A stretch of 64,000 nt of DNA from Lewinella sp. IMCC34183 (GTDB taxonomy: Bacteria; Bacteroidota; Bacteroidia; Chitinophagales; Saprospiraceae): contig NZ_QMEM01000013.1 in NCBI RefSeq assembly GCF_003390915.1, positions 1-64,000 of the forward strand, written 5' to 3'. A program made the position numbers and the translations under genes. The notes under the pieces were generated by a model that was not told the origin of the DNA, ran no database searches, and worked only from the letters and a program-made list of their open reading frames with translations. Shown here in pieces: positions 58,606-61,616 of the stretch (positions within the stretch are counted from its first letter, which is position 1; each line of letters begins with the position of its first letter).

Positions 58606-60024
58606 ATGATATTTCAGATCCGGGAAGACGAGCGTAAGATTTTCGAAGTGATCGGCCGGTCGGCCGCCGATCTGGGCTACCCCACCTATGTGGTCGGGGG
58701 CTACGTCCGCGACCGGCTGCTGGCGCGCCCCAGTAAGGACCTCGACATTGTCTGCGTGGGCAGCGGCATCGACCTGGCCCGCCGCGTGGGCGAGAACCTA
58801 CACCCCCGCAGCCGGGTCACCGTCTACAAGCGCTTCGGCACCGCCGCCCTGAAGCACCGCGACCTGGAAATAGAGTTCGTGGGGGCCCGCAAGGAGAGCT
58901 ACCGCTCCGATAGCCGCAAGCCCACCGTCGAGTCCGGCTCCCTGGCCGACGACCAGAACCGCCGCGACTTTACCATCAACGCCCTGGCGATCAGCCTCAA
59001 CGAGCACGACTACGGCTCCATCATCGATCCCTTCAACGGGCTGGAGGACTTGGAGGCCAAGCGGATCGTGACCCCGCTCGAGCCCGGCAAGACCTTCAGT
59101 GACGATCCCCTGCGAATGCTGCGGGCCATCCGCTTCGCTACCCAACTGGGCTTCCGGATCGACCCCATCACCTTCCGCGCCATCAAGGAGCACCGCGAGC
59201 GCATCAAGATCATCAGCTGGGAACGCATCGCGACGGAGCTCAACAAGATCCTCCTAGCGTCCCAGCCAAGCGTCGGCCTCCGGTTGCTGGACGAAAGCGG
59301 ATTGTTGCAGTACATCCTGCCCGAGCTGGCGGCCCTGCGGGGCGTGGAGAGCCGCAACGGCCGCAAGCACAAGGACAACTTTATCCATACCACCAAAGTG
59401 GTAGATAACCTGGCCGACCGCAGCCCGGATTTGTGGCTGCGCTGGGCCGCCCTGCTGCACGATATCGGTAAGGCGAAAACCAAGCGTTGGGAAGAGGGGG
59501 TCGGCTGGACCTTCCACGCCCACGACGCCGTCGGGGAACGCATGGTACCGAAGATCTTCCGCCGCCTCCGTCTGCCCAACGACCGGCTGAAGTACGTGCA
59601 GAAACTCGTAGCCCTGCACCAGCGCCCCATCTCCCTCACCCAGGAAGAGATCAGCGACTCGGCCGTACGCCGTATTCTTTACGATGCGGGCGACGACATC
59701 GACGACCTGATGACCCTTTGCGAAAGCGACATCACCAGCAAGAACCCCCAAAAGGTGCGTCGTTACCTGACCAACTACGAAGGGCTGCGCGAGCGCATGA
59801 AGGAGATCGAGGAAAAGGACCACCTCCGCAACTGGCAGCCTCCCATTTCCGGCGAACTGATCATGGAAACGTTCGGCATTCCGCCGAGCCGCGAGGTGGG
59901 TACTATAAAGGATGCGGTCCGCGAAGCGATCCTCGACGGAGACATTCCGAACGAGTACGAAGCCGCCTACCGCAAGATGGTAGAGGCCGCCGCAAAACTG
60001 TCCCTGCAACCCGTCGCCGGATAG
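58606..60024 (+). CDS. cca: CCA tRNA nucleotidyltransferase with HD domain
   Basis: 472 residues. Nucleotidyltransferase core YVVGGYVRDRLLARPSKDLDIVC (GG and DxD), NRRDFTINALAISLN, FSDDPLRMLRAIRFATQLGF, then the HD domain HTTKVVDNLA and LRWAALLHDIGKAKTKRW. It adds or repairs the 3' CCA of tRNAs. The ATG at 58606 (MIFQIREDERKIFEV) fits the promoter. It is divergent from the lamin-tail gene (62 bp). Confidence 0.95.
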   Translation: MIFQIREDERKIFEVIGRSAADLGYPTYVVGGYVRDRLLARPSKDLDIVCVGSGIDLARRVGENLHPRSRVTVYKRFGTAALKHRDLEIEFVGARKESYRSDSRKPTVESGSLADDQNRRDFTINALAISLNEHDYGSIIDPFNGLEDLEAKRIVTPLEPGKTFSDDPLRMLRAIRFATQLGFRIDPITFRAIKEHRERIKIISWERIATELNKILLASQPSVGLRLLDESGLLQYILPELAALRGVESRNGRKHKDNFIHTTKVVDNLADRSPDLWLRWAALLHDIGKAKTKRWEEGVGWTFHAHDAVGERMVPKIFRRLRLPNDRLKYVQKLVALHQRPISLTQEEISDSAVRRILYDAGDDIDDLMTLCESDITSKNPQKVRRYLTNYEGLRERMKEIEEKDHLRNWQPPISGELIMETFGIPPSREVGTIKDAVREAILDGDIPNEYEAAYRKMVEAAAKLSLQPVAG

Positions 60025-60061: not shown

Positions 60062-60081
60062 CACCCCACGATCGTGGGGTG
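60062..60081. terminator. Palindromic hairpin after cca
   Basis: CACCCCACGATCGTGGGGTG is a perfect 20-base palindrome 38 bases past the cca stop. No T run follows (a C-rich tract does), so it is only a possible terminator. Confidence 0.35.
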
Positions 60082-60102
60082 CTGCCCCCTCCCCCCTCCC
60101 CC

Positions 60103-60110
60103 TATCTTTG
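60103..60110 (+). promoter_or_regulatory. -7 promoter box (TATCTTTG) of the candidate ncRNA
   Basis: Exact TAnnTTTG match on the plus strand with no coding sequence downstream on that strand. It is preceded by a C-rich tract and no obvious -33 TTG. Confidence 0.5.
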
Positions 60111-60113
60111 ACT

Positions 60114-60321
60114 TATCGAAAGGGACGGTGCAACGTCCTATCGAGTTTTTCCAAAAAGCGTGTTCACTTTTCTGGCGCCCGGGATTGTTGGTTTTCCCAC
60201 CGCCACGTTTTGAAGGTTTGTATTATAATCCCTGCGGCTCGGCCGCACTAAATTCCAGTTATTTCGGTAGTCTGAAAGCTACACTTGAGGTCCGTACGAA
60301 AGTACGGACCTTTCTTTTTTT
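60114..60321 (+). ncRNA. Candidate structured ncRNA, about 205 nt
   Basis: A plus-strand transcription unit with no open frame is bounded by a -7 box (60103-60110) and an intrinsic terminator (60289-60321). It is rich in local hairpins: GGACG/CGTCC (60123-60138), TGGCG/CGCCA (60173-60205), TGCGGC-TCG-GCCGCA (60233-60247) and GTAG/CTAC (60267-60282). Nothing on the same strand follows, so it is not a leader or riboswitch. The length would suit 6S RNA, but I cannot show the 6S-type central bubble. SRP RNA and RNase P core motifs are absent. The 5' end is inferred. Confidence 0.5.
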
Positions 60322-61616
60322 ATCCACCCCCGCTCCAGCAAAAAATACACGCCTACCAGCGCGTATTCCGCGCCGACCAGCCAGAGGTTCTCAGTATAGG
60401 GCACCACAGTATAGCTGGTGTAGGTCAGCATGATCAGGTACGACCACAGCAGGGGGAACCGCCAGGGGGTGAAGCAACACAGCACCACCGGCACCGTCAG
60501 GTACCAGGGATGGACGGTGGTGGCGCAGAGCAAATACAGCACAAAGGCCGCCAGCCAGCCCCCCGGCAGCGAACGCCAGTCGGTACGGCGGTCCGCCAGG
60601 GCGACGATAAAGATCACGCCCGCCGCCAGACGGGCGAGCAGCGGGCCGAAACGGGCGATCTGGTTCCACCCCAGCTCGTGGTAGCCGTAGCTTCGCAGCA
60701 GGTAGTAGAGGCTGGCGTTAAATTCAAATTTCCGGAAGTACAGGTCCAGGCTGTTGCCGAAGCCGCTCAGAAAGCCGCTCCCGATCAGCAGCGGTACGAA
60801 CAGTAGCCCCAACCCCGCCCCCAGATATAGGAAAAAGGTCCAGAAGGGCCTCCCCCACAATCGCCGTAACAGAAACGGCAGCAACATGAGTGGCAACAAC
60901 TTGCTCCCGACCGAGAGAGCCATCGCACCCGCGGCCCCGCCGTACCGGCTGCGCGTGAGCAGGTACAGGGACAGGAGCAGAAAGGCCACCATCGCCCCCT
61001 CGAAGTGCAGGTTGCCCACGATCTCCACCAGGATGAGGGGATTGAGATAGTACAGCAACAGTCGCCCGCGCGGCAGGCCGAAGCCCGCCAGTAATCGCAG
61101 CAATAGCCACAGGGTAGCCAGTTCGGTCAGCAGCAGGAACAGCTTCATGACCACCGCCGCCCCGTACCAGCTGTGGGGGCTCACCATTACCGCCACCGCG
61201 AATACCGCCTGGGCGACCGGGGGATACACGGAATGGTACGCCTGCGAATTCAGCCGCTCGAATAACCGGGCGTCGTTGCCCCCGGGGCCCGTGCCGGTGG
61301 CGGAGTAATAAGCAGGCGGATGCACAAATGGGTTTTCTCCGGCCGCCACCAGGTGGCCGTCCCAGACAAAGCGGTATACGTCGTCGCTGAGGCGCGGAAA
61401 CGCAAAGACCAGTACGATCCGCAACAGGACGCCCAGGCCGATCCAGTACCGGAGCCCGCGAAGCGTCGGGCGGTAGACGCACAGCAGGTAGCCGGCGAAG
61501 GCGGTGGTGAAGGCGGCAAACAGCGGCCAGAAGCCGGTACGATCTACCGCAAAGCCCAGGTAGAGCACGCCGGCCGAGAGCAGGAGCCCGCCGGCTGCAC
61601 CGCGGGCCAGGCTCAC
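60279..61616 (-). CDS. Polytopic mannosyltransferase-like membrane protein (GT87/DUF2029 type)
   Basis: 445 residues with about a dozen hydrophobic helices. Family marks are FPRLSDDVYRFVWDGHLVAA followed by GENPFVHPP, YPPVAQAVFAV, NLHFEGAMVAFLLLSLYLL and TTVHPWYLTVPVVL. This is the pattern of polyprenol-phosphate-mannose-dependent transferases; the Asp pair of SDDVYR is the probable catalytic site. The start codon is GTG, overlapping the previous gene's TGA by four bases (GTGA). The last ten codons overlap, in antisense, the ncRNA terminator. Donor and acceptor unknown. Confidence 0.85.
   Translation of the reverse strand: MSLARGAAGGLLLSAGVLYLGFAVDRTGFWPLFAAFTTAFAGYLLCVYRPTLRGLRYWIGLGVLLRIVLVFAFPRLSDDVYRFVWDGHLVAAGENPFVHPPAYYSATGTGPGGNDARLFERLNSQAYHSVYPPVAQAVFAVAVMVSPHSWYGAAVVMKLFLLLTELATLWLLLRLLAGFGLPRGRLLLYYLNPLILVEIVGNLHFEGAMVAFLLLSLYLLTRSRYGGAAGAMALSVGSKLLPLMLLPFLLRRLWGRPFWTFFLYLGAGLGLLFVPLLIGSGFLSGFGNSLDLYFRKFEFNASLYYLLRSYGYHELGWNQIARFGPLLARLAAGVIFIVALADRRTDWRSLPGGWLAAFVLYLLCATTVHPWYLTVPVVLCCFTPWRFPLLWSYLIMLTYTSYTVVPYTENLWLVGAEYALVGVYFLLERGWIKKERSVLSYGPQV
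60289..60321 (+). terminator. Intrinsic terminator of the candidate ncRNA
   Basis: The perfect stem GGTCCGTAC-GAAA-GTACGGACC (60289-60310) is followed by TTTCTTTTTTT. It lies antisense within the last codons of the mannosyltransferase-like gene, which ends at 60279. Confidence 0.9.

Follow-up and report, generated by a model that had tools for sequence, protein, structure and literature searches.

The window, that is, the whole 64,000-nt stretch of DNA analysed, carries a conserved and structured predicted transcript of ~206 nt (60115-60320, plus strand), here called RNA1. It is placed in the gap between cca, which ends at 60024, and a convergent glycosyltransferase gene, which ends at 60279. 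The features of the locus are collected in table 1, together with an array of further RNAs. A first-pass annotation of this DNA had recognised an exact -7 box and an intrinsic terminator, and both are in place, the latter with 11 pairs followed by a T run. The terminator had also been described as sharing its sequence with the final codons of the gene opposite; this is true in the window but not general, as the glycosyltransferase gene has a match within the RNA1 locus in 10 of 20 loci (that of the window's genome included). The cca gene accompanies 16 of the 20 aligned loci.

Table 1. Features of the RNA1 locus (window positions) and the tandem array of further RNAs
Feature	Position	Strand	Basis or remark
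Palindrome ACCCCACGATCGTGGGGT, proposed activator box	60063..60080	+	centre ~-43.5 from predicted start
C-rich spacer in place of -33 element	60081..60102	+	20 aligned RNA1 promoters; G011 spacer not C-rich
-7 box TATCTTTG	60103..60110	+	TA[CT]CTTTG in 20/20 loci
Hairpin H1, loop GUGCAA	60116..60144	+	segment folds, within/between energies, covariation
Near-invariant linker TTTTTCCAAAAAGCGTGTTCA	60146..60166	+	RNA1 alignment
AAAAAGCGTGTTCA, part of linker TTTTTCCAAAAAGCGTGTTCA	60153..60166	+	similar to small-RNA core of other genera
Hairpin H3, loop UUGUUGGUUU	60173..60205	+	segment folds, within/between energies, covariation
Hairpin H4	60233..60247	+	segment folds
Near-invariant linker CTAAATTCCAGTTATT	60248..60263	+	RNA1 alignment
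Hairpin H5	60267..60282	+	segment folds; GGTAGTTAGAAAGC in relatives, common to RNA4 of array
Intrinsic terminator	60287..60320	+	overlaps last codons of opposite glycosyltransferase gene
RNA array (RNA2, RNA3, RNA4), tandem	L022 = G000:C34:85155-88172	minus	also L027, L030, L031, L032, L039, L044, L045, L053

A DNA search of 60 relatives gave RNA1 matches in 20 of the 21 genomes of the genus Neolewinella (Lewinellaceae, Saprospirales in the NCBI taxonomy), the window's own genome included, and none in the 39 genomes from outside the genus. The 21st genus genome, G011, contains a divergent copy which was located via its promoter, and RNA1 is thus found in all 21 Neolewinella genomes searched. 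A pattern scan of named genomes returned 18 stretches, entitled Neolewinella, Lewinella, uncultured Saprospiraceae or Bacteroidia. The covariance search against Rfam 15 placed no family at or above its gathering threshold in the whole window. Sub-threshold scores fell on the 3′ end and terminator of RNA1 (suhB, 23.2 of 41 bits; MicC, 19.6 of 90) and, on the minus strand, over the palindrome (Chlorobi-1, 21.2 of 50).

The stretch had been described as free of open frames. In the window, a GTG frame of 101 codons does start at 60128, but its length drops to 6-75 codons in the 19 remaining loci, and no ATG was found in the transcript; a coding reading was therefore rejected.

The stretch 60103-60330 folds better than its shuffled versions (z -2.65, with 3 of 200 shuffles as good). 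At least four local hairpins had been proposed; five structures, namely H1, H3, H4, H5 and the terminator, recur with changing stems in the segment folds of 20 relatives, H5 being weak in one. In the MAFFT alignment, 94% of the cells pair. Both sides of a pair have changed in 54 cells, against a mean of 19.3 in shuffled alignments, none of 500 being as high, and 2 to 10 in slid controls, over which the scored structure is favoured since it derives from the same alignment. Two of the five measures of the covariation test were reached by 17 and 12 of the 500 shuffles. H4 was left out of the score because its register is misaligned, and H5 hardly varies among the loci. Almost no change is seen in the linkers TTTTCCAAAAAGCGTGTT and CTARATTCCAGTTATT. 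The presence of RNA1 in every genus genome searched and the number of both-side pair changes above the controls show that it is more than a product of chance. Conservation, covariation and the empty Rfam result support the initial proposal of a stand-alone, structured and undescribed noncoding RNA.

In the more distant members of the genus (L010-L020, alignment A1), the terminator of RNA1 is the hairpin GACGGTGCAACGTC, which resembles H1 (60128-60133). The GGTGCAAC loop is also found in RNA2 terminators and is gone from the RNA1 terminator in the window's subgroup. As a frequent signal, GGTGCAAC was rejected (2 sites in the window vs 2.6 expected).

The palindrome upstream of RNA1 was absent from the first-pass annotation, and it leads to the explanation given below. 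In all 20 aligned loci, ACCCCA-N6-TGGGGT starts 48-49 nt ahead of the end of the -7 box. The combined pattern of palindrome and box occurs in all 21 genus genomes (none with the reversed control), where several of its matches are not RNA1. According to PMC9723704, the TAnnTTTG box of Flavobacterium is located at -12 to -5; when the box of the window is placed likewise, RNA1 is predicted to start at 60115, with the palindrome centred as in table 1. On the other strand, the spacers of the 20 aligned RNA1 promoters, unlike that of G011, are rich in G with long G runs, and a quadruplex might form there.

Further RNAs that are probably driven by the palindrome form an array in nine genus genomes, including that of the window. 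RNA4, the last member, was found in all nine arrays; in seven of them an exact palindrome precedes it, but a TAnnTTTG box is missing from the set distance. In the window's genome, no RNA3 was recognised. Against Rfam, the array RNAs gave four sub-threshold matches and none above. Short sequences are common to several of these RNAs: TCTCTCA near the 5′ end to RNA2 and RNA3, GGTAGTTAGAAAG to RNA3, RNA4 and RNA1, and GGTAGTTAGAAAGC to RNA4 and the RNA1 relatives. The gene adjoining the array resembles, by eye, a macro-domain protein. In L042 and L047 (genus genomes G003 and G015), a further candidate RNA with AAAGCTTTCTGACATACC and a terminator extends from the palindrome at 1500 in the promoter direction. 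A TAnnTTTG box at the set distance is likewise missing from the fourth palindrome of the window's genome (C50:400309).

The palindrome and box pattern is also found in 34 of 199 genomes of the family, four of the 199 belonging to the genus (reversed control, 2 matches). The span from palindrome to box is 47 nt in 27 of 29 sites, where 42-50 were permitted; these sites, from 28 loci, are a subset of all pattern sites listed. A small RNA with AAGCGTGTTT follows 15 of the 29, and roughly nine run into protein genes. In detail, this small RNA of other genera consists of a nearly invariant 38-nt core, ATCCTTCCTATTCACCTATCAACAAGAAGCGTGTTTAC, then a variable hairpin and mostly a T run. AAGCGTGTTYA is common to its core and to RNA1, and several of the small RNAs contain a block like CTAAACTCCAG, comparable to the RNA1 linker at 60248..60263. 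Three rows were left out of A3: L074, which repeats the site of L101; L103, which repeats that of L092; and L086, which has AAGCGTGTTT without the palindrome.

R2, a sequence model of this RNA built without genus members, matches 20 of the 199 family genomes and 15 of 112 genera, with one copy per genome. Sixteen of the 20 R2 loci have the exact palindrome at the set distance, as does a 17th (L118) by pattern scan; it is imperfect in the other three. On 46 loci outside its training, 21 of them RNA1, R2 gave three matches, all to RNA1 (E 0.007-0.016). In the reverse direction, the best non-genus matches of the RNA1 model were L080, L074 and L081 (E 0.008-0.05). A common origin of RNA1 and the small RNAs of other genera is likely, not proven, with homology resting on short blocks. 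An order-wide search for CAAGAAGCGTGTTTAC found it in 3 of 298 genomes, all within the same family. A stricter form of the palindrome (CAT...ATG) was absent from all 395 genomes searched across the phylum, only six of which were from this family; the zero is silent on other forms of the palindrome, since this form misses the window's own genome too.

Other short RNA kinds also appear behind the palindrome, one with a TTTAACGTAACACACACTCAAAC-like sequence and one with GTTACGTAAGGGGGAATC and a long hairpin (L075, L085; L079, L091), and L085 has a second palindrome in tandem. In L076, L077, L078, L084, L086 and L088, the palindrome and -7 box precede protein genes, several of which start like small secreted proteins; the presumed regulon would thus not consist of RNA alone.

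A gene whose product has the C-terminus of one histidine-kinase family lies immediately upstream, in the same orientation, in 10 of the 20 R2 loci; two of the 20 gave no upstream gene (L108 starts close to the RNA and L118 was not read). Pfam searches of three of these kinases found Reg_prop, Y_Y_Y and HisKA_3, with HATPase_c above cut-off in two. Beyond the small RNA, as seen from the kinase, a recQ helicase gene recurs in several genera (L143, L145, L146, L147, L151 and L157), so that kinase, small RNA and recQ make up a conserved neighbourhood. In L094, the palindrome lies between a Reg_prop-type kinase and a regulator with Response_reg and GerE domains. Fifteen linked regions contain regulator, kinase and palindrome in 13 cases and kinase and palindrome in 2; as they were picked for visible linkage, they confirm a gene order and not a rate. 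The order varies (regulator-kinase-palindrome, kinase-regulator-palindrome or kinase-palindrome-regulator), and the distance from the first letter of CCCCA to that of the box is 39 nt in all 15.

With the regulator of the window's genome as query (E <= 1e-35), matches were obtained in 85 of the 199 family genomes. Outside the genus, the regulator is present in 29 of 30 palindrome-positive genomes vs 52 of 165 others (Fisher p 5e-12), and in 20 of 20 R2-positive genomes vs 61 of 175 others (Fisher p 5e-9), both values being uncorrected for ancestry and genome size. The single palindrome-positive exception, G161, has an odd 44-nt site. Many genomes have the regulator but lack the palindrome or the RNA.

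The window's genome has a single clear homologue of the kinase (G000:C54:57986-59362, E 5.7e-115; next best 1.3e-25) and likewise of the regulator (G000:C53:112378-113013, E 3.3e-48; next best 2.1e-21). They are located on different contigs, neither linked to RNA1. Near this kinase the palindrome search gave just one chance-level match with two mismatches, and near the regulator none. Autoregulation of the regulator in this genome was rejected, as there is no palindrome within L131 or L132.

RNA1 is probably a structured small RNA with a regulatory role, produced as one of the outputs of a two-component system that acts through the palindrome. The RNA is conserved and structured, the spacing of palindrome and box is fixed, and several RNAs have the same promoter. 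In other genera, palindrome, kinase and regulator are physically linked, and they co-occur. A sensor kinase of the Reg_prop/Y_Y_Y/HisKA_3 type would phosphorylate a LuxR-type response regulator (Response_reg and GerE), which would bind ACCCCA-N6-TGGGGT centred near -43.5. We infer activation rather than repression, in which the bound regulator would help the polymerase at the TAnnTTTG promoter. The small RNA, once transcribed, would act in trans via its invariant single-stranded linkers and loops; conserved single-stranded blocks of the RNAs may base-pair to mRNAs or serve to hold a protein. Counting against this reading are the unlinked kinase and regulator of the window's genome, the uncorrected co-occurrence test, the many regulator-positive genomes that lack the palindrome or the RNA, the sites leading to protein genes, the missing box of RNA4 and the shortness of the blocks common to RNA1 and the RNAs of other genera. 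As the palindrome adjoins kinase and regulator genes in relatives, an undescribed signal-to-small-RNA switch is suggested. This reading brings together a family of RNAs, the box in their promoters and a candidate pair of sensor and regulator, and the proposed RNA and promoter offer a reason why the gap behind cca is so well kept.

RNA1 could instead be a conserved small RNA whose palindrome is the site of another regulator, the nearness of kinase and regulator reflecting a shared neighbourhood only. The separation of the three in the window's genome and the lack of an upstream kinase in about half of the R2 loci agree with this; on the other hand, the linkage persists while gene order varies, and the regulator co-occurs with the palindrome, which makes the alternative unlikely.

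The initial suggestion that RNA1 is the 6S RNA of the lineage, a decoy for RNA polymerase, is very improbable. Like 6S RNA (RF00013, RF01685), RNA1 is stand-alone, structured, ~200 nt long and has its own promoter. RF00013 had no match in the window's genome (5 of 14 controls responded), so the post would be vacant; RF01685 had none either, but none of its controls responded. A strong closing helix appears in the single-sequence fold of the window and in its closest relatives, with -8 to -10 kcal/mol for six of the first nine. Over 20 loci, however, this end-to-end helix is not supported, with -5.63 kcal/mol within vs -5.23 between sequences, unlike H1 (-13.4 vs -8.6) and H3 (-12.2 vs -9.0), and the architecture is one of separate hairpins and invariant linkers. 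Hardly credible is a cca 3′ end region with the palindrome as terminator and the rest as untranslated leader or decay debris, for although the palindrome lies ~40 nt behind cca, which accompanies most loci, no T run follows it, the palindrome-box unit stands at 20 R2 loci without a cca match, and conservation extends to the box, the linkers and the terminator of RNA1.

To our knowledge, little is known about small-RNA regulation in Bacteroidota beyond Bacteroides and Flavobacterium, and a search of an open-access library found nothing comparable to the proposed switch in print. The Rfp small RNAs of Flavobacterium psychrophilum (e.g., Rfp18) are likewise stand-alone, structured and from Bacteroidota (PMC9723704). 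By description they are another class, and the stem "palindrom" is absent from that paper.

The closest likeness is to GacS/GacA-RsmX/Y/Z (BarA/UvrY-CsrB/C), with a histidine kinase, a response regulator, a 6-N6-6 palindrome and several small RNAs. GacA itself is LuxR-type, and here too a LuxR-type regulator and a histidine kinase are linked to a small RNA in other genera, although not in the window's genome. The palindrome is ACCCCAN6TGGGGT and not the Gac box, TGTAAGN6CTTACA (PMC11837529), and it adjoins a -7 box at fixed spacing. The kinase carries Reg_prop, Y_Y_Y and HisKA_3 domains. GGA-rich loops are missing, with 1-4 GGA per RNA1, 0-2 per 90-nt family window and none in the two conserved loops of RNA1 (GUGCAA and UUGUUGGUUU). 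Since palindrome letters, kinase type and RNA design differ, the system would work like Gac/Rsm without being a member. More tentatively, and with doubt outweighing belief, the family of Neolewinella may possess its own counterpart of Gac/Rsm, in which one kinase-regulator pair would command a set of RNAs via a dedicated palindrome (up to four RNAs per Neolewinella genome). The 38-nt core, single-stranded and near-invariant, with its echo in RNA1, would then bind a single conserved partner, either a protein or an RNA, with control over many genes.
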